Of a DNA stretch of 45,260 bases, positions 28,665 through 38,650 are shown piece after piece. Numbering within the stretch: the stretch's first letter is position 1; every line of letters starts with the position of its first letter. The translations under genes were made by a program, and so were the position numbers. Location: assembly GCA_021108035.1 (NCBI GenBank), contig JAIORQ010000087.1, forward strand, positions 1 to 45,260. The letters run 5' to 3'. Below the pieces are notes generated by a model. It worked only from the letters and a program-made list of their open reading frames with translations. It was not told the DNA's origin and ran no database searches. Source of the DNA: Bacteroidales bacterium. Its GTDB lineage: Bacteria; Bacteroidota; Bacteroidia; Bacteroidales; JAADGE01.

Positions 28665-31076
28665 TTAGTTTATTAAATCATCTTCTGATTTTCGTTTAAA
28701 CAATCCGAATTTATAATGTAAACTGAAATAAAAACTCATTCCGGGACCTCCCGGTATTGCAGGAATTCGTTTTCTTATATGTTCGGGATAGAAATATTCT
28801 TTATCAGTTAAGTTAATTCCTGTTATTTGAAAATAAAGTTTTTTATTGAAATTTAATTTCATTACACAATTTAAAATTCCGTAACCGTCAATATTTACTT
28901 CTTGTCCTTCTGTGTAAGCCGGGGCAACAACACTTCCTAAGTTACCTTTTTGATCTCCAATATAATAAAAATTAGGGCTTAATTCAATAAACTTTGCCGG
29001 TTTGAATGTTAATCCTCCGCTTGCAGTATAATTTATAAAGTAAGGTAAATTTTCATTAGTTTCTTCATCAATTCCTTCTTTATAAGAAAAATTAGCAAAG
29101 AAATTTAATTTTTTCCAAGGTCTTCCTTTTATTTCAAATTCTCCTCCGATTATTTGTTGAGCTCCGAAATTATCATATATCATACCTACATTATGTCCGA
29201 TAACAACTGTGTCAGATGAGCCGTCAACAGGCCTTCTTAAAATTAATTCATTTGCATTAATTAAAAAACCGTTTAATCTGATTGAAAATTTCTTAGCTAA
29301 CAGTATATCAAATGCTGCTTCGTAAGTTTTTATCCTTTCGGGTTCTAATGATCTGCCGGCTGCATCAGCTCCGTATGTAACAGCATTTACTAAAAAATAT
29401 TGTTCTTGAAATCCAGGACCTCTAAATGCTTCACCGTAAAGAATTTTTGCACTTGCATTATCAGTAATTCCGAAAACAAGGCCTCCTCTCGGAGTATAAT
29501 ATATATTATCAGGAATTCCGAGGTATGTGGCTCTAATTCCGGCAATATAACCGAGACGTTTAAATAAAGTTCCGTCAACTTGCAAATATCCTGCATAATC
29601 TATTACATCATTCGGCGGAAATTCAGATGCGCCTTCATGTGTCGGGATAACAGTTCCGCCTCTTTCCCCAAGCATTGTGTAAACATGATCACAATCACGA
29701 AGTTCTCCGTTAATTCCTCCGATAACAGAAATCTGTTCGTTTATGAAATAATTAAGAAGTAATTCTCCGTTGTATAATTGTCCTTTATAGAGTGAATAAT
29801 TCGGAGCTGCAAATGAAGGATCGATTTCAGTTAAATCAAGAGGATATGTAGAATCGTTTAAAAAATAATTCCGAAAATTTAAAGTGCCAAATTGTCCTAC
29901 ACCTGTTTCTTTGTCCATATAATCGTAATGCAATGCAACTTTTCCTGAAAAATTATTTGTAAAATTAAAGTCATAAACTGCATTAAGATATGCTTTTCTG
30001 TGTTCAGCCATACCTGCATCAGGCACTTGGTCAGAGCCGTATCTTATTGCAGTTGTCATACTGAATTTTGCAATATTCTGAAAATAATAACCTCCGCTTA
30101 ATGTTAAACCTTTATATTGATATTTAGCAAAAATATTTTGAATATCATTTTCATAGTTGAGATTAACATTTTCCTCTCCGGTCTCATCAAACTCTAATGT
30201 ATGATTGTATCCGTCATTGTCGGTATAAGTAGTACCTATTAAATAACTTCCGAATTTTAGAGAATCCCCGACAACAAATCCGGCACTTCTTGTATTAAAT
30301 GAACCGTATTTAACAAAAGAATTTATTCCTCTGAATGTATTTCCTGATTTTGTAATAATATTTATAACTGCGGAAAAAGCATTTGTTCCGTACAGGGTTG
30401 AACCCGGTCCTCGGATGATCTCAATTCTTTCAATAGCACTAACCGGCACAACATCAAGATAGTATTCCAATGTTACGGTTTCATAAGCCGGAATTCCGTC
30501 AATAAGCATTAATATTTTATCATTGTAAAGTGTCATTGCAACTCCTCGTGCAGTTACAATCGGACCTCGCCAATAAACACCCGAAACAGTAAAACCGGGA
30601 ATATATCTCATAAGTTCCGGTATTGTTTGAATACCGAGTTCATTTATTTCTTCTGCTGTTATTACACTTACAATAGCCGGTGCTTCACTGATTTTTTGTG
30701 TTTTTTTTGAAACAGTCGAAACTTCCACTTGCATCAACTCTTCAAGCGACATTTCGTAAAATTCTCCTTCTGCTTTGGGGTCTAATTCAATTATAATTTC
30801 TTCTTGCTCAACTACTTCTTTGCTTATCTTTACTTCTTTAGTTTGCATTCCTTCAGCACTGATAATTAAAATACAGTCTTCAGGAATAACAATTAAAAAA
30901 TACCCTGAATTATCAGAATACATTTTTACGTCCGAACCTTTAACACTTATTAACGCATTTTTAACATGTTTTCCTATAACTGAACTCTTAACTTCTCCTG
31001 ATAACAAAAAATCTTGGCAAAAACTCGTGTTGCCGAAGAAAAATAATGCAACGATAATTAATAATAATTTCTTCAT
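28665..31076 (-). CDS. TonB-dependent outer-membrane receptor with carboxypeptidase-regulatory-like domain
   Basis: The ATG at 31076 (MKKLLLIIVALFFFGNTSFCQ) is chosen because a signal peptide begins there; the ATG ten codons upstream adds MIIINRKLFN. The mature protein has a CarboxypepD_reg-like beta-sandwich (~25-105), then a segment MSLEELMQVEVSTVSKKTQKISEAPA linking to the plug (VSVITAEEINELGIQTIPELMRYIPGF...RIEIIRGPGSTLYGTNAFSAVINI) and a ~600-residue beta-barrel ending in an aromatic strand (GMSFYFSLHYKFGLF). It would import a large ligand or signal across the outer membrane using TonB energy. It lies 153 bp downstream of a YfiR-like gene on the same strand, a pairing common in Bacteroidota. 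There is no SusD-like partner. The ligand is unknown. Confidence 0.92.
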   Translation of the reverse strand: MKKLLLIIVALFFFGNTSFCQDFLLSGEVKSSVIGKHVKNALISVKGSDVKMYSDNSGYFLIVIPEDCILIISAEGMQTKEVKISKEVVEQEEIIIELDPKAEGEFYEMSLEELMQVEVSTVSKKTQKISEAPAIVSVITAEEINELGIQTIPELMRYIPGFTVSGVYWRGPIVTARGVAMTLYNDKILMLIDGIPAYETVTLEYYLDVVPVSAIERIEIIRGPGSTLYGTNAFSAVINIITKSGNTFRGINSFVKYGSFNTRSAGFVVGDSLKFGSYLIGTTYTDNDGYNHTLEFDETGEENVNLNYENDIQNIFAKYQYKGLTLSGGYYFQNIAKFSMTTAIRYGSDQVPDAGMAEHRKAYLNAVYDFNFTNNFSGKVALHYDYMDKETGVGQFGTLNFRNYFLNDSTYPLDLTEIDPSFAAPNYSLYKGQLYNGELLLNYFINEQISVIGGINGELRDCDHVYTMLGERGGTVIPTHEGASEFPPNDVIDYAGYLQVDGTLFKRLGYIAGIRATYLGIPDNIYYTPRGGLVFGITDNASAKILYGEAFRGPGFQEQYFLVNAVTYGADAAGRSLEPERIKTYEAAFDILLAKKFSIRLNGFLINANELILRRPVDGSSDTVVIGHNVGMIYDNFGAQQIIGGEFEIKGRPWKKLNFFANFSYKEGIDEETNENLPYFINYTASGGLTFKPAKFIELSPNFYYIGDQKGNLGSVVAPAYTEGQEVNIDGYGILNCVMKLNFNKKLYFQITGINLTDKEYFYPEHIRKRIPAIPGGPGMSFYFSLHYKFGLFKRKSEDDLIN

Positions 31077-31179
31077 ATTAAATAATTTACGGTTAATTAT
31101 TATCACTTTTGTAAAACTGTTTAACTCAAATATTTTATCCTGTTAAATGTATAATTATTAATAAGATTGGTGTTTATTG

Positions 31180-31195
31180 AAGCTCTTAAGAGCTT
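31180..31195. promoter_or_regulatory. 16-bp perfect palindrome between YfiR-like and receptor genes
   Basis: AAGCTCTTAAGAGCTT lies in the 123-153 bp gap, 34 bp beyond the YfiR-like stop. It could be an operator for the receptor gene or a weak transcription pause; no T-run follows on the minus strand. Confidence 0.3.
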
Positions 31196-31229
31196 ATTTT
31201 TGATTTAAATCAGTATTTATATCCTTATT

Positions 31230-31721
31230 TTATTTTACTATTCCGATTTCTAATAATTTTGAATCAATTTTAATATTCTTTTTTTCAATATTTTCGGGGT
31301 AAATTTCAAATTGTTGTTTCGAATCCACTATTATTAAATTAATTCCTATTTCTTCTGATATTTCATTTGCTTCTGATGTAATCAAAACTGTTGAATATTC
31401 TTCAATTTCCAACACAACATATCCAATTTCGGCATTTGCATTTTGAGAAACATATAAAATATTGCACTTTACAATATCCTCAACATTGTTAAATTCAAAA
31501 ACTTCTATATCTTTTCCTGATACTTTATAATTTAGTGCTATGATTTGTATTTCTGCTAAAAATTCAGGACTTCTAAAAACACCAATCTTAAAGACATCAT
31601 CATCAGTCCAAGTTAAATATTTCGTAAAATTGTAAGTCAATAGTGCTTGAATTTTATAATTTTGAGACTGAACAAATAAAAACGAAGAAATAAAAATTGC
31701 TGTAAGTATTATTTTTTTCAT
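31230..31721 (-). CDS. YfiR-family (DUF4154) periplasmic protein
   Basis: A 163-residue exported protein with a clear signal peptide (MKKIILTAIFISSFLFVQSQ). The mature part follows the YfiR/DUF4154 layout: IQALLTYNFTKYLTWTDDDVFKIGVF, then SGKDIEVFEFNNVEDIVKCNILYVS, VLITSEANE, a stretch ending in INLIIVDSKQQFEIYPENI, and KIDSKLLEIGIVK. YfiR proteins are periplasmic regulators, best known for restraining the diguanylate cyclase YfiN. In Bacteroidota they often accompany a TonB receptor and a sensor kinase. Here the receptor follows in the same direction and no YfiN-like GGDEF gene is present. Only one Cys (in KCNILYV) is visible, so the disulfides of the Pseudomonas protein are absent. Confidence 0.75.
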   Translation of the reverse strand: MKKIILTAIFISSFLFVQSQNYKIQALLTYNFTKYLTWTDDDVFKIGVFRSPEFLAEIQIIALNYKVSGKDIEVFEFNNVEDIVKCNILYVSQNANAEIGYVVLEIEEYSTVLITSEANEISEEIGINLIIVDSKQQFEIYPENIEKKNIKIDSKLLEIGIVK

Positions 31722-31943: not shown

Positions 31944-34619
31944 TTAATTATCATCCTCCCCCGGCAATTCAATTCCTTCTTCTTTGCAAATCTTTTTGAA
32001 AGGATCAACAGACCAAGGTGCTGTATAATCATAAAAGAAACCGTAGGGTTTTTGGAGCATTTCAATCAGCTCTTTGGTTTCAGGTTCATGTACTTTGGAG
32101 AGACTTTCTTCAATTTTATTCCAATTTTCACAAGTTAATTTCAAAGTAATAAAGATTCCGGCTTTCCCTTTATTAATGATGATGCCTTCCAATCCGTGTT
32201 CCAATATCTTTGATTTTGCCCTACTTATGTTTCTTTCGCCTACATCATACAGAACATACATATATTTTTCAAATAAGATATACTCATTTAAAAGGAAAAC
32301 AATTTCTTTCGGATTAAAAGATTTCCAGAATTTTGTCGATTTCTTAATACAAATAAATCTCCCTAACATAAATGAACCCGCTTTAAAACCTTTTAAATCA
32401 TTTTTCAAACATTTATCGGTTACCTTTTTATAGAATGAAATTTGCCTGTCTGTTGTCAGCAATTTATATAATTTATGTTGATCTTGATGGGTTCCCAGCT
32501 CACTTTTCAAAATTTGTTTCACATAATAATCTGAATTAGTATCATACCAGTTGTTTACAAAATTTTCTGCTTTTTTTTGATCTTTTTCAAGGTCTGTTCT
32601 GATAAATTTTGTAAGGTCGTCAAGATTAGATATATCTGAATGATCCAATGAACTAACAATGGCATCATATTCTTTATATGCTTTTGCCATATTTTTGAAA
32701 ACAATTTCTTCTTTCGGCTCCATATCAAATTGCATACCGTCAATATATTTTCGGAATCTTGCCGGTGTAAAAGTTGCTTTACCAATAAAGACAGTTTTTT
32801 TCTTACTGCTGATAGTGATCCAATCGCCCTCTTTTATCTTAATATTTTGTGAATTTATTAAAGTATTGTTTTCTAATTTAATACCGTAATTTTCCAAATT
32901 TAAAAATGCCGGTATCCCGTAACCTCTGCAAGCTGTTACTACATGAATTGCAGCCGGATTTAAACTGATAATAGCATCAACTTCTTTCATAATAACTGTA
33001 TCTGAAGGCACAAAATGTTCTTTACAGTAACATACTTTTTCACCTCTTTTTTTGGCATCTAAAACTGTGTCAGCAGAAAAATATATTTTAACAGAACCGG
33101 CTGATCTCGGTAATACAGAAATTCCTTCCGAGAAGAAAATCAATTCCGATAAGGCTTTAGCATCAATAGTTTCTGAAAATATTTGCCGTAAATGATAAGG
33201 TTGAACTAAGTTAATTACATTGTCTTTACTAAGAATTCCTTTTTTGTACAGATCAATAGTTGATAATAAACATGCCCTGCCGGTCAATTCAGATTTGTTT
33301 AATTGTAACACTGCAAACAGATGTGTGTTTTCATAAGATTCAGCTGCAAATTCAATGGTAACCGGCGACTTTTTACTGATTTCCAGTTCTCTTAATACCG
33401 GTGAAAAATGATAAACTGCCGGATAACTTTCTTTGATTTCTTTTCTGTTAAAATATTCTGTATCAACAGCTTCAACATTCCCTGACATTATATCTTCACC
33501 GAATATATTCTTACAACTTTCAATTTGACTGCCTAAACCTGTTCTTGAATGCCTGCTGTATAAAATACCCGGATATGAGTTCTCATCTCTTATAGTCCAT
33601 ACCATTTTTTGCAGTATGAAGGACGGATATGTTTTCTTTTTAATGAGTGTATAAGGCAATTCCTTGTTTTTTTCAAAGAATTCACATGCTTTTTTCAATA
33701 AAAAACTGATCTGATAATACGGATCAAAAAGAAGTTCTTTATCAACTTGATAAATCAGATCGAAATAAGTTTGTATCTTTTTATATATATCACCGGTTGA
33801 AGAATAATATTGTTTTTCTTTCAATATCGGGATATTTTTATCATGATATAATAAAGAGTATAAAGTAAACAGATTATTAAGATATATTTTACCTGCCACA
33901 TTATTACCGTATAACTTTTTTAATGCTTCAACCGTATCCGGAACAACACCTGCATTAAGGTAAGTAGGCATTAAACCGGGAATGTATTGAGGCATTGCAC
34001 AACGAATAGCAAATACTAAAGGAGAATCAGTATTATTCAGTTTTTCGCTTGTCATTTGCTCAAGATTGCTGATTGCAATTCTCAAATTCTTTTCTTTTTC
34101 ATCATCATTTAAGGAGAACCAATCGGTTGTTAAGATAGAAAAATCGGGAACAGGATAACCTTCTTTTATAAGATCCAAAAGATTTGATCCTTTGTGGCTG
34201 ATGCGATAAATATCATAATCTTTGCTTGTTCCTGAATGAACAACATATTTATTTTCGATAAGATTAACATCTTTGTAATACCACTCTTTATCAGCAAGAT
34301 ATTGCTCTCTGTAATAATCAACTTTTGCTTTGGCTGATTCATCTCCTTTACGAGAGGCAATTAAGTACGATAAGTAATTCTTTCCGCGTATCTTGTCCTT
34401 TTGGCACAAATAGGGAATATCTGCAAATTCAGCATTGAATTTTTCCGGCACAGAGCTTTCTGTTTCTCTGTATTCTACTTCTGCAGGAATATAACCAATA
34501 CCCGATGTTTCCCTGTTCTTATTATTTCTGTTTTTAACAAAAAATTTAATATTATAATAATTCGGGTAATTCCCCCTTAATGTATAATCAAAAATAGCTT
34601 GAGAGTGTCCGGTATCCAT
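31944..34619 (-). CDS. Divergent PPDK-like phosphotransfer protein lacking the PEP/pyruvate barrel
   Basis: An 891-residue cytoplasmic protein. A TAA directly precedes the ATG, fixing the start. After a ~120-residue N-terminal extension, residues 124-450 follow the PPDK ATP-grasp: NKYVVHSG...HKGSNLLDLIKEGYPVPDFSILTT (Lys143), FAIRCAMPQYIPGLMPTYLNAG (Arg206), LQKMVWT...GILYSRHSRTG, GEDIMSG and TIEF...VLQLN. Residues ~500-615 match the swivelling phosphohistidine domain (GSVKIYFSADTVLDAKKRGEKV, NPAAIHVVTACRGYGIPAF, EGDWITISSKKKTVFIGKA), with His559 aligning to the catalytic His. Residues 620-891 are not the expected TIM barrel and I do not recognise them. The Arg of the usual LQTR motif appears to be Asn441. 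It stands alone. It may transfer phosphate to an unknown acceptor, or be a regulator. Confidence 0.7.
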   Translation of the reverse strand: MDTGHSQAIFDYTLRGNYPNYYNIKFFVKNRNNKNRETSGIGYIPAEVEYRETESSVPEKFNAEFADIPYLCQKDKIRGKNYLSYLIASRKGDESAKAKVDYYREQYLADKEWYYKDVNLIENKYVVHSGTSKDYDIYRISHKGSNLLDLIKEGYPVPDFSILTTDWFSLNDDEKEKNLRIAISNLEQMTSEKLNNTDSPLVFAIRCAMPQYIPGLMPTYLNAGVVPDTVEALKKLYGNNVAGKIYLNNLFTLYSLLYHDKNIPILKEKQYYSSTGDIYKKIQTYFDLIYQVDKELLFDPYYQISFLLKKACEFFEKNKELPYTLIKKKTYPSFILQKMVWTIRDENSYPGILYSRHSRTGLGSQIESCKNIFGEDIMSGNVEAVDTEYFNRKEIKESYPAVYHFSPVLRELEISKKSPVTIEFAAESYENTHLFAVLQLNKSELTGRACLLSTIDLYKKGILSKDNVINLVQPYHLRQIFSETIDAKALSELIFFSEGISVLPRSAGSVKIYFSADTVLDAKKRGEKVCYCKEHFVPSDTVIMKEVDAIISLNPAAIHVVTACRGYGIPAFLNLENYGIKLENNTLINSQNIKIKEGDWITISSKKKTVFIGKATFTPARFRKYIDGMQFDMEPKEEIVFKNMAKAYKEYDAIVSSLDHSDISNLDDLTKFIRTDLEKDQKKAENFVNNWYDTNSDYYVKQILKSELGTHQDQHKLYKLLTTDRQISFYKKVTDKCLKNDLKGFKAGSFMLGRFICIKKSTKFWKSFNPKEIVFLLNEYILFEKYMYVLYDVGERNISRAKSKILEHGLEGIIINKGKAGIFITLKLTCENWNKIEESLSKVHEPETKELIEMLQKPYGFFYDYTAPWSVDPFKKICKEEGIELPGEDDN

Positions 34620-34793: not shown

Positions 34794-34842
34794 TAGTTTT
34801 TCAGGAATAAAAGTATAATTTTTTTATTAATCAGAATGATAT

Positions 34843-35104
34843 GGTAACCTCTAATAATTAATTTCTTTCAAGAAACAAAAATAATGAATAAGATGCGAGG
34901 CATAAATTTTATGTAATAGCCGTAGCTATTTCAAAAAATTTTAACGAAGTCAGATTGTTTATTATATTTGTTCCCAAAGGGTTTTCAGAGTTTTCCATAT
35001 ACTTCTTGAAATTTTCTTGCATTATCCCGATAGTGCTTCATAAATTTCAATCGTCTATAAAAAACTCTGAAAATCTTGATGCAAATTAATTATTAGAGGT
35101 TACC
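34843..35104. mobile_element. MITE, copy A (262 bp)
   Basis: The ends are perfect 22-bp inverted repeats starting GGTAACCTCTAATAATTAAT. The flanks are ATAT on both sides (34839-34842 and 35105-35108), a 4-bp target duplication. There is no coding capacity. The interior carries a second inverted pair, TTTTCAGAGTTTT (34982-34994) and AAAACTCTGAAAA (35061-35073). A second full copy of the same length lies inverted at 40089-40350. The NTAN-type duplication would suit an IS5-group-like transposase acting in trans (inference). Confidence 0.85.
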
Positions 35105-35216
35105 ATATATTTATCGGTTTTAAAACATAATTATAAAAAGCTGCAATAATGTCAGTTTTTGGAATTATGCACAATTATTGTCTGATAAACAGCAATTCTT
35201 AATTCAAAAAAACTTT

Positions 35217-35678
35217 ATGATACGAAAATCAATAAAATCTCTTCTGATAATTCTTATTACAACTGTTACAACTTATTTCGGATTTGCCGGCACTGTTGAT
35301 CCTGCTGTTGTTTTAAGTTATACTGACTTGGCAAAAGATGAAATAATCAGTGAAATTGAGAACGATGATTATGAAAAGATATATTTAAAAGCCGGAAACG
35401 AAAAATTTGGTTTTAGTCATATTTTAAAAAGACATTCCGGCAATTATTTTGCGGATGTCGTTCAAAAAGGAAATCTTTTTCCGACAGGTACAACAGGCAA
35501 ACAAATCATCAAAGGCATTGAAACAGCATATAAAAACGGGGAACAAGACCCTAAAGCATACGGTAATAAAAAAGTTTTGCTTCACGAACTGAATTTGAAC
35601 GGTGAAAAAGGAAAATACAGACTTGTTATAAATGAAGATAAAGATGTGATTACTTTTTTCAGGCTGAAGAAGTCATAA
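35217..35678 (+). CDS. Small secreted protein, possible BECR-fold ribonuclease-like domain
   Basis: The start is taken at ATG 35217 (MIRKSIKSLLIILITTVTTYFGFAG), where a signal peptide begins; a TTG 13 codons upstream extends the frame without adding a feature. The ~130-residue mature part contains EKFGFSHILKRHSGNYFADV, a spaced TGTTGKQIIKGIETAYKNGEQD, then GKYRLVINEDKDVITFFRL. This HI-x2-RH ... K/R ... beta-hairpin layout resembles BECR-type (barnase/EndoU/RelE-like) nuclease domains found in polymorphic toxins. It has no immunity neighbour and no large carrier. A secreted housekeeping nuclease, a remnant toxin cartridge, or an unrelated protein all remain possible. It lies downstream of MITE copy A. 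Confidence 0.45.
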   Translation: MIRKSIKSLLIILITTVTTYFGFAGTVDPAVVLSYTDLAKDEIISEIENDDYEKIYLKAGNEKFGFSHILKRHSGNYFADVVQKGNLFPTGTTGKQIIKGIETAYKNGEQDPKAYGNKKVLLHELNLNGEKGKYRLVINEDKDVITFFRLKKS

Positions 35679-36154: not shown

Positions 36155-38650
36155 TTATTTTTGAATTAAAATTTTTAATTCTTGTATTTGTTTTTTAAGT
36201 TCTTCGATTTCCATTTCTTGTTTATTCAACTTTTCATTTTGTTCATTAATTTGTAATTGTTGCTCATAATTTGCTTTATAATTATAAGTTGTCATTTCAT
36301 CTGTTAGGATTGAAAATTCTTCAGTTAAATCTTTCGGTAAAGAATTCGGATCAAGTTCAATCAAACCACGGTCTGTTATATAATCAAACATTCCTTCTTT
36401 TTTAGGTTTTGGCGGATATTTTATTAGTTCTTCTGTTACACTTCTGTCAGTAAAAGCAGCTGCACCCTGATTGTACAGATCATCATAATAAATATTATCC
36501 CAAGCTCGACCGTTTTCTCCCAGATCGCAATCTTTGTGAGTTCTGGAACAGAAACTCCCGTTTCTCATTAGAAACCGAGATGTTTCATTATAACCAATAT
36601 AGAGATCTGTTCCGTTATTCAAAAAGTCCCAAGTATTTGTGTTGGCTGATGCTTCAAGTGCAAAATGAGCACTACTCCAACTTGTTCCGCCCATTTTTAC
36701 AACAAGTCTTTCATCCGGGACTACTCCTATACCTACATTACCGGAGAAATAACCTTCCCCTCTGCCATAAAATGCATATTCATGACCTGATGTTGAACCT
36801 CCGTCAGCATCTGCAAGAATTGCATAAGAATTTGACGAACCATTAGCATAAGAATAACTTAAAATACCGTATGCAGAGCCTGAAGTACTTCCGCCATAGC
36901 TTCTAAAATAACCTGCACGCGATATTGATGTAGTTGTAGCTGCGGGTTCATAAACATATAATCTATATGATGATGAAGGTGCAATATTAACCCCAACTTT
37001 AGCATTAAACCTCAAATGATCAGTACTGAAATTTCCCCAAATTAATGCACCTGTATTGGTTGCATTAGTATTTTCAATATATAATCTGTCAGAAGCTATT
37101 TCGTTATAACCGGCATAATAACCTAAAAAAACATTTCCGTCTCCGGCCACATTTGAATAACCTGCTTGATAACCAAGGGCTGTATTATTATCTCCGGAAA
37201 TATATACTGAAGGCGTTGATCCCGGAATTCCACCTCCATGTCCAGCCGCTGTTCCAACAAAAGTATTTCTATGTCCTGTTTGCAGATTTTCCCCTGTATG
37301 TGAACCTAAACATGTATTAAAATTTCCCGAGGAATTATAAAACCCACAATCAGCCCCACTAAAAGTATTATAACTTCCGGAATTTACAATTCCACTATGG
37401 TATCCAAAAAATGAATTATATCCGCCGGTTGTATTAACATATCCACACATATTACCAACAAAAGTGTTTTTACTGCCGGATGAATTATTTGTTCCGCTTT
37501 GATAACCAATAAATACATTTTTATATCCTGTAATATTATCATAACCACTTTGATATCCTACAAAAATATTATTTGATCCTTCCCACTCTCCGGGGTAAAC
37601 TTCTACTCCTCCTGTAGTTTTAAAACCTGTTTCATATCCAAAAAATGTATTATATTGTCCATTAGTAAGTTGCTGTCCTGATTTATGACCAATTAAATAG
37701 TTTTCTTCTGTCATTTGCATATAAGTACTTCCTCCTTTTGCAGCACCGTATCTTCCTACTGCAAAACCGCCGGATACTCCTTTTGTTCCGTTGCCGTCAG
37801 TATAAACTCTTGTGCTGTCAATATTTGTAAAAAAGAACAGGCTGTCTGCTTCTCCTTTTGCAGCACCGTATCTTCCTACGGCAAAACCGCCGGATACTCC
37901 GGTTGATCCGTTTCTTGAATATACCCTTGTGCTGTCTTCATTTGTTGTGAAAAACGTTGTTGTAGGACCTTTGGCTGCACCATACCTGCCTACGGCAAAA
38001 CCGCCGGATACCCCGGTTGATCCCTTTCTTGAAAAAACTCTGGTACTGTCGGGTGTTACCATAAAATAAGTTGTATCGGGCATTCCTTTTGCTGCTCCGT
38101 ATCTGCCTACGGCAAAACCACCGGATACGCCTTTTGCTGTATATTCTTTTACATATAATCTTGCTCCTTCGGATGTTACTACAAATATTGGTTTACCGTC
38201 TTTATCCTGTATCTCAAAAAGAGCATCTTCGTCAGCTTGTGAGGCATCTGCTTTTACAACAAATTTACCGGAAGGAGTTGTTGTTCCTATTCCGACATTG
38301 TAAGTGGTATTTGTTAAATAAACATTTGAAGATGATTGAGACCAAATTTCTGCCGACATTGATAAATCTGTCCATTTGCCGTTTCCGAATATAAAAAATG
38401 CATCCTCATCTGTATCAAAAACGAGTAATCCTTCAGCAGGGTAACCGGTTCCATTATCAATTTTTTCTCTGTCAGAAGTTGTCATTCTCGGTATTAATAA
38501 TCCTTGTGTTGTTGATTGTATCTCAAGCATTGCAGAAGCATCCGGTGTTCCTCCGGTTGAATTAATCAGAACTTGAGATTCTCCTTTATTTATTATCAGA
38601 ATTGAAATAATAAAAAGGATAAGAATTTTGTAAAAGTATAACTTTTTCAT
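36155..38650 (-). CDS. YadA-head-like repeat surface protein with C-terminal coiled coil
   Basis: An 831-residue exported protein (signal peptide MKKLYFYKILILFIISILIINKGESQ). An N-terminal module of a common Bacteroidota surface/tail-fibre type (GGTPDASAMLEIQSTTQGLLIPRMTTSDRE, then NVGIGTTTPSGKFVVKA) precedes four copies of a GVSGGFAVGRYGAAKG block spaced ~38 residues apart (DNA period 114-120 bp). Ten YadA-head-like repeats follow (core N-x-F-x-G-x-x-x-G, e.g. KNVFIGYQSG). The end has GRAWDNIYYDDLYNQGAAAFTDRSV, similar in position to endosialidase-chaperone-type tails but not canonical, and a coiled coil (NEKLNKQEMEIEELKKQIQELK). No type IX sorting domain is evident. A small PH-like gene lies 11 bp upstream. 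A fibrous adhesin-like role is likely. Confidence 0.8.
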   Translation of the reverse strand: MKKLYFYKILILFIISILIINKGESQVLINSTGGTPDASAMLEIQSTTQGLLIPRMTTSDREKIDNGTGYPAEGLLVFDTDEDAFFIFGNGKWTDLSMSAEIWSQSSSNVYLTNTTYNVGIGTTTPSGKFVVKADASQADEDALFEIQDKDGKPIFVVTSEGARLYVKEYTAKGVSGGFAVGRYGAAKGMPDTTYFMVTPDSTRVFSRKGSTGVSGGFAVGRYGAAKGPTTTFFTTNEDSTRVYSRNGSTGVSGGFAVGRYGAAKGEADSLFFFTNIDSTRVYTDGNGTKGVSGGFAVGRYGAAKGGSTYMQMTEENYLIGHKSGQQLTNGQYNTFFGYETGFKTTGGVEVYPGEWEGSNNIFVGYQSGYDNITGYKNVFIGYQSGTNNSSGSKNTFVGNMCGYVNTTGGYNSFFGYHSGIVNSGSYNTFSGADCGFYNSSGNFNTCLGSHTGENLQTGHRNTFVGTAAGHGGGIPGSTPSVYISGDNNTALGYQAGYSNVAGDGNVFLGYYAGYNEIASDRLYIENTNATNTGALIWGNFSTDHLRFNAKVGVNIAPSSSYRLYVYEPAATTTSISRAGYFRSYGGSTSGSAYGILSYSYANGSSNSYAILADADGGSTSGHEYAFYGRGEGYFSGNVGIGVVPDERLVVKMGGTSWSSAHFALEASANTNTWDFLNNGTDLYIGYNETSRFLMRNGSFCSRTHKDCDLGENGRAWDNIYYDDLYNQGAAAFTDRSVTEELIKYPPKPKKEGMFDYITDRGLIELDPNSLPKDLTEEFSILTDEMTTYNYKANYEQQLQINEQNEKLNKQEMEIEELKKQIQELKILIQK

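Follow-up and report, generated by a model that had tools for sequence, protein, structure and literature searches.

The DNA analyzed here, referred to as the window, is a stretch of 45,260 nucleotides from a Bacteroidales bacterium (positions 1 to 45,260 of contig JAIORQ010000087.1). Its minus strand carries a gene for a protein related to pyruvate phosphate dikinase (PPDK), a textbook phosphotransfer enzyme in which a swivelling histidine serves a fixed phosphoenolpyruvate (PEP)/pyruvate barrel. Sequence comparisons and a structure model indicate that the window protein retains the ATP-grasp half, its nucleotide-site residues and the phosphohistidine swivel domain, while a conserved helical domain stands at the place of the barrel. 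The features are summarized in Table 1. A canonical PPDK of 909 residues is encoded in the same genome, and the window protein is thus a paralogue.

To describe the family, 84 loci were examined, some of which are one record reached twice. After partial frames were dropped (L025, L042, L048, L064), the remainder and the window protein made up 81 sequences. Of these, 62 are non-redundant at 90% and form the base of all counts out of 62 given here; they are 38-72% identical to the window protein.

Table 1. Coordinates of the family gene, its domains and aligned residues, and of the enolase-containing frames at other loci (window positions unless a locus is named).
Feature	Position	Strand	Basis or remark
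PPDK-like barrel-less protein, 891 residues, ATG start	31944..34619	minus	Open reading frame call; homologues at full length
N-terminal extension, residues 1-136, small alpha/beta part	34212..34619	minus	Model, conservation
ATP-grasp (PPDK nucleotide-binding) half, approximately residues 137-498	33126..34211	minus	Boundary to swivel domain approximate
Phosphohistidine swivel domain, approximately residues 499-616	32772..33125	minus	Superposes on 2fm4
C-terminal all-helical domain, residues 617-891, at the place of the PEP/pyruvate barrel	31947..32771	minus	Model, conservation
Lys143 (PPDK Lys22)	34191..34193	minus	Alignment, conservation; invariant 62/62
Arg206 (PPDK Arg92)	34002..34004	minus	Alignment, conservation; invariant 62/62
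Glu423 (PPDK Glu323)	33351..33353	minus	Alignment, conservation; invariant 62/62
Gln439 (PPDK Gln335)	33303..33305	minus	Alignment, conservation; invariant 62/62
Asn441 (position of PPDK Arg337)	33297..33299	minus	Alignment, conservation; Asn 60/62, Asp 2/62 (L034, L037)
His559 (PPDK His455), within S-L-N-P-A-A-I-H-V-V-T-A-C	32943..32945	minus	Alignment, conservation; invariant 62/62
Permuted enolase behind M50-like HExxH part	L067:10705-13137	minus	Pfam, neighbourhood
Permuted enolase behind M50-like HExxH part	L069:4531-6981	minus	Pfam, neighbourhood
Permuted enolase behind M50-like HExxH part	L076:3624-6185	minus	Pfam, neighbourhood
Permuted enolase behind M50-like HExxH part	L098:12796-15243	minus	Pfam, neighbourhood
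Single 2331-residue frame	L210:3541-10536	minus	M50-like part, permuted enolase, middle, PPDK half

Domain structure of the protein

Similarity to PPDK is confined to the central part of the protein. A phmmer comparison with the Clostridium symbiosum enzyme (1dik, E 2.6e-20) spans residues 141-613, and the profile of the 62 members matches PPDK 2dik over residues 137-616 (E 2.2e-36), with no match extending past residue 616. These alignments bear out the initial annotation, which had read the frame from its letters as the nucleotide-binding half and swivel domain of a PPDK. The best segments are 20-30% identical between the family and PPDKs. The NCBIfam PPDK model TIGR01828 covers residues 140-627 with 124 bits, well under its cut-off of 843. 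Pfam finds PEP-utilizers alone, under its cut-off (E 0.012). Among ten further members, Pfam gives weak PPDK_N or PEP-utilizers matches in nine, with a match above the cut-off in one of them (L069), and nothing in the tenth. Comparison of the full family profile with a profile of the PPDK N-half by hhalign gives a probability of 99.9 of 100. A full-length structure was modeled from the 62-sequence alignment with no templates, yielding a mean predicted local distance difference test (pLDDT) score of 88.5 and a predicted template modeling (pTM) score of 0.81. PPDK structures are among the matches of this model (1kbl, E 6.2e-31), and its swivel part superposes on the isolated phosphoryl carrier domain of PPDK, 2fm4 (2.3 Å, TMt 0.82).

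Residue correspondences were read from the phmmer alignment with PPDK. Four nucleotide-site residues and the carrier histidine are kept in every member (Table 1), the histidine being the one that the initial annotation had singled out and that its proposal needed homologues to retain. Because these five residues are invariant despite the low identity to PPDK, they are not what would be expected of a decayed copy. The possibility that the gene is a pseudogene or truncated PPDK was rejected on the basis of full-length conservation across differently labelled phyla.

The C-terminal part does not resemble the PEP/pyruvate barrel of PPDK. Sixteen of its positions are invariant in the 62 sequences: Trp691, Gly709, His711, Gly744, Ala747, Gly748, Phe750, Met751, Gly753, Arg754, Phe755, Trp765, Glu779, Lys785, Tyr786 and Gly794. 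Residues 610-891 modeled alone give an all-alpha structure (pLDDT 88.1, pTM 0.80). The profile of this part finds PDB sequences at a best E of 0.49, and Pfam returns scattered weak families across the 62 members (best E 0.0011), the commonest being DUF1376 in 11. A barrel concealed by divergence was considered and rejected, since hhalign gives a probability of 0.1 of 100 against the PPDK barrel profile and both the all-alpha model and the PDB sequence search disagree with it. A TIM barrel was looked for in residues 620-891 and not found, as had been anticipated from the lack of barrel motifs, and the conserved new domain that the initial annotation would have counted in favor of its idea does exist. 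With Foldseek, no match to the model reached E<=0.001 in the PDB or among the BFVD viral models (best PDB E 0.057), so that the predicted fold is unmatched with respect to these two collections.

The domain has been seen in the family architecture. Among 295 genomes scanned in the window's order, none showed it in another architecture; 15 of the 16 matching genomes have it in frames of 887-921 residues. The remaining locus, L111 (G610), has it in a 481-residue frame, possibly a split or damaged copy. Plasmid sequences gave no match to the C-terminal part.

An extension at the N-terminus, put at about 120 residues in the initial annotation, is real and measures approximately 135. It has no match in PPDK (hhalign probability 0.4-0.5 of 100), and its Arg15 and Asn20 are kept in 95-96% of the 62 homologues.

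Family membership and distribution

The barrel-less family is genuine and monophyletic: a tree containing 28 of its members and 31 PPDK-type sequences unites the members in one clade with support of 1.0 on a long stem. A scan of the genomes of 84,980 species recovered 170 relatives, perhaps including ordinary PPDKs. Distribution was taken from the record titles of the best 80 of these 170; such titles are submitters' names, some of which may be wrong. They are mainly Bacteroidales or Bacteroidetes, with further titles from Saprospiraceae, Chlorobiota, Cloacimonadota, Deltaproteobacteria, Krumholzibacteriia, Terriglobia, Aminicenantes and Elusimicrobia. By their labels, the records with the family span at least seven phylum-level groups. 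Its occurrence is patchy, extending to 16 of 295 genomes in the window's order and, with a five-row profile, to one of 395 genomes drawn across its phylum. One member titled Ruminococcus flavefaciens (L059) groups in the tree with the Bacteroidales member L054 and perhaps comes from a mislabelled metagenome bin.

Phage sequences were also searched. Matches were found in 27 records, none covering as much as 80% of the query, and among the 20 matches listed similarity is confined to residues 138-627. They include PPDK-like kinases of Vibrio phages (H7-H10) that match the ATP-grasp and swivel halves.

Gene neighbourhoods and the permuted enolase

Neighbourhoods were compared at 62 loci, comprising the window and 61 others, and the family gene was recognized in 59. 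Of the neighbours inspected, those held in common track lineage; a conserved operon partner in Bacteroidetes was rejected on this basis. The exception is a protein of approximately 815 residues that lies close to the family gene at loci L067, L069, L076 and L098 (Table 1). Pfam analysis of three of these proteins identified Enolase_C followed by Enolase_N, the reverse of the usual order and hence a circularly permuted enolase, and a weak N-terminal Peptidase_M50 match under the cut-off. The partner P0002, for example, differs from enolase in placing the C-part before the N-part, behind an M50-like HExxH part, and TIGR01060 gives it 245 bits, under the equivalog cut-off of 300. When its two parts are restored to enolase order and aligned, P0002 keeps the catalytic and metal-binding residues of enolase (GGxH, QE, EGG, D, E, GDD, K, SHRS and K). 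The active-site residues are kept in both permuted enolases aligned. A permuted enolase was found in 5 of 25 family genomes tested, and all five also hold an ordinary enolase.

Where the two genes occur together, the association is close. In the class of G714 (titled Terriglobia), an identical six of 200 genomes carry both genes as neighbours, and the same is true of an identical two of 178 genomes in the phylum of G717 (titled Elusimicrobia); the limits used for these counts were strict (E 1e-60 to 1e-100) and would pass over remote copies. All ten pairs with coordinates are arranged tail to tail. Of the nine pairs in one measured set, eight have 13-565 bases between the matches; the ninth, in G717, has a gap of 2149 bases in which a 463-residue frame is called, and a tenth pair, in G718, has a gap of 46 bases. 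Across eight pair loci, the family gene and the permuted enolase are the sole genes common to all, other clusters as large being overlaps of those two genes in other frames. Further genes are common to two or three Terriglobia loci, and two of the eight contigs are short. The two proteins also co-diverge (Mantel r 0.96, p 1e-4, n=9 pairs), with effectively eight pairs because G714 and G718 are 99-100% identical; as the genomes are related, neither the pair counts nor the Mantel figures count independent events. For the Terriglobia / Elusimicrobiota / deltaproteobacterial clade, to which the inference is limited, this pairing suggests an acceptor or product near the 2-phosphoglycerate/PEP node, such as glycerate or the enolase protein itself.

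A second type of association is present in L210, from one of the genomes in the phylum of G713 that carry a permuted enolase. Here a single frame combines an HExxH part similar to the M50-like one with a permuted enolase (47% identity to P0002), a long middle region and the ATP-grasp and swivel domains of PPDK, after which it ends without a barrel. The fused half is a different PPDK derivative, given that it retains LQTR and GGSTSH and that the PPDK profile gives its best segment 160 bits, against 10 bits from the family profile. There are thus two arrangements that bring a permuted enolase together with a barrel-less PPDK half, the fused one being seen in one genome. Permuted-enolase loci L206 and L211 end at a contig edge before the position of the PPDK half.

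Another barrel-less PPDK derivative was observed on the minus strand of L142, in a frame of more than 1000 residues that keeps LQTR and GGATSH. This locus lies in G704, a genome that also holds the window family.

Elsewhere in the window, a TonB-dependent receptor and a YfiR/HmsC-like protein are encoded downstream of the family gene on the same strand (28665-31721, minus). Just upstream of it is a 52-nucleotide imperfect inverted repeat (79%; 34822-34873 and 35074-35125, with 200 nucleotides between the arms), which might be a small mobile or repeat element. A small protein at 35178-35678 (plus) weakly resembles the bacterial EndoU family, with a Pfam match under the cut-off (E 0.089). The frame at 36155-38650 (minus) encodes an 831-residue protein with repeated GVSGGFAVGRYGAAKG units, no credible Pfam match and a C-terminal part reminiscent of tail-fibre proteins. 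Several histidine kinases are also encoded within the window.

Relation to known enzymes and candidate function

Compared with PPDK (TIGR01828, EC 2.7.9.1), the family aligns through the ATP-grasp and swivel domains over residues 137-616 and keeps the carrier histidine and four nucleotide-site residues, but has new N- and C-terminal parts and lacks the PEP/pyruvate TIM barrel, Arg337 and the GG-x-T-S-H loop. A barrel-less PPDK half with its carrier histidine is also found in VadK (Rv1127c), a mycobacterial PPDK-derived histidine kinase, which is described as truncated, with an ATP-binding and a histidine domain (PMC13400623). The present family differs from VadK in adding approximately 135 residues before and a conserved 275 or so after the PPDK-like half. 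The NCBIfam model NF004531 (534 residues, named pyruvate phosphate dikinase), which we take to be the one covering VadK, gives the window protein 85 bits against a cut-off of 456. Rifampin phosphotransferase (RPH), HpeHI, CreHI and phenylphosphate synthase have in common with the family an ATP-grasp and a phosphohistidine swivel domain, and their acceptors are non-pyruvate. The full model has weak fold matches to structures of the RPH/HpeHI type (5hv3, E 4.1e-6; 9goj, E 3.5e-5), whereas no RPH is among the 50 PDB matches listed for the C-terminal domain alone. RPH has its histidine in the C-terminal region (PMC4844700), while His559 is central in the family and the helical domain comes last. 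By the features tested, the window protein is not VadK, RPH or HpeHI; it is PPDK-type up to the swivel domain, yet not a PPDK.

On this basis, we propose that the protein is a PPDK-derived, barrel-less phosphohistidine transferase that is driven by ATP and acts on an acceptor other than pyruvate, a reading to which we assign a probability of roughly 0.45. ATP would bind the ATP-grasp half, and one of its phosphates would move onto His559 of the swivel domain. The swivel domain would then hand the phosphate to a non-pyruvate acceptor, either held by the helical C-terminal domain or docking onto it, with the N-terminal extension perhaps taking part. Persistence of ATP-driven phosphorylation of His559 is argued from the invariance of the nucleotide-site residues and carrier histidine. 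Most simply, the C-terminal domain would take over the barrel's part as an acceptor or docking site. There are precedents: VadK is reported to autophosphorylate on histidine and regulate metabolism (PMC13400623), and ATP-grasp/swivel halves serve other acceptors in RPH (PMC4844700) and HpeHI (PMC12167813). Whereas the structural claims of the initial annotation were right, its suggestion that the phosphate goes to another acceptor or that the protein is regulatory is best described as a plausible proposal.

Several observations weigh against this proposal. PPDK Arg337 is replaced by Asn or Asp throughout, in line with the Asn that the initial annotation had noticed in place of the arginine of LQTR. 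The position of PPDK Asp321 is Thr421 (Thr in 61 of 62 members, Ala in one). The PPDK loop GGMTSH, preceding the carrier histidine, becomes PAA[IV]H or SAA[IV]H and is one residue shorter; in the window protein, deletion of the residue equivalent to Met452 leaves PAAIH. The family thereby departs from the T/SxxGGxxxH pattern, a conserved feature reported for the swivel domain across PEPS, PPDK, PtsI, RPH and phenolic kinases (PMC12167813). As Arg337, Asp321 and the glycine-rich loop are all altered, phosphorylation of His559 by the PPDK route is not assured; these changes strengthen the earlier suggestion of altered chemistry and are compatible with a sensor role or with ATP chemistry of another kind. 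No cross-lineage neighbour was found in Bacteroidetes and Cloacimonadota loci, and of the 25 family genomes tested 20 have no permuted enolase, the window's own being one of these. Among 188 genomes in the phylum of G713, four have the enolase and two the family, with an overlap of one: G711 has the family without the enolase, and three genomes have the enolase without the family.

An alternative, which we consider unlikely without being negligible, is a regulatory phosphohistidine switch. In this case His559 would autophosphorylate, no small molecule would be phosphorylated, and the helical domain would be a protein-docking module for metabolic enzymes, for example canonical PPDK or enolase. 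VadK is the closest parallel, being a barrel-less PPDK derivative that reportedly autophosphorylates His422 and contacts methylcitrate-cycle enzymes (PMC13400623). An all-helical domain and the lack of a common operon partner in most lineages would fit such a role. A canonical PPDK was matched in all 20 family genomes checked (partial or in pieces in G702, G709 and G718, and with a stop in G703) as well as in the window genome, but this co-presence is weak evidence because PPDK is common in relatives anyway. On the other hand, the invariant polar residues His711, Arg754, Glu779 and Lys785 would suit an active site, and the intact active site of one clade's enolase partner suggests metabolism.

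It is improbable that the protein is an ATP-binding sensor or pseudo-dikinase, binding nucleotide with no transfer of phosphate because Arg337, Asp321 and the glycine-rich loop are gone. His559 would then be kept for structure or for metal binding with Cys530, Cys532 and Cys564 of the swivel domain, which are conserved in 98%, 96% and 100% of the 62 sequences. The substitutions described above agree with this explanation, and two PPDK mutants have been crystallized, R337A (2dik, by its title) and K22A (1jde, likewise), the family naturally having Asn at the first of these positions. Against it, Lys143, Arg206, Glu423, Gln439 and His559 are all invariant. Very improbable is a split dikinase, in which a barrel from another protein (in one clade the adjacent permuted enolase with its TIM barrel, elsewhere an unlinked protein) would exchange phosphate between His559 and a partner-bound metabolite: the tail-to-tail pairing, co-divergence, L210 fusion and known split dikinases such as HpeHI (PMC12167813) favor it, but the fused half of L210 is of a different subfamily and 20 of 25 family genomes lack such a partner.

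The proposed non-pyruvate phosphotransferase could also be extended into a new dikinase class, with the ATP engine of PPDK and a helical acceptor domain that would act around the phosphoglycerate/PEP node. Several phyla would then have a two-gene module made up of this dikinase and a permuted enolase bearing an M50-like, probably membrane-bound part, converting, for example, glycerate and ATP to 2-phosphoglycerate and then PEP. The partnership would have been invented twice, since another lineage fuses a like enolase to a different barrel-less PPDK half. We regard this extension as rather doubtful.

The idea of a barrel-less PPDK is not wholly new, because VadK is already known (PMC13400623). 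No published account of the barrel-less family or the permuted enolase was found in the open-access literature searched, and as far as that literature reaches the re-domained family is new. It indicates that the PPDK engine is portable: a widespread family keeps the engine and replaces the barrel, as VadK and RPH also show. For structural work, the family offers a well-delimited domain whose fold is unmatched, and its natural change of Arg337 to Asn and altered loop let the catalytic role of those residues be tested in a protein that evolution has retained. In one clade, the permuted-enolase partner provides a concrete handle on the substrate.

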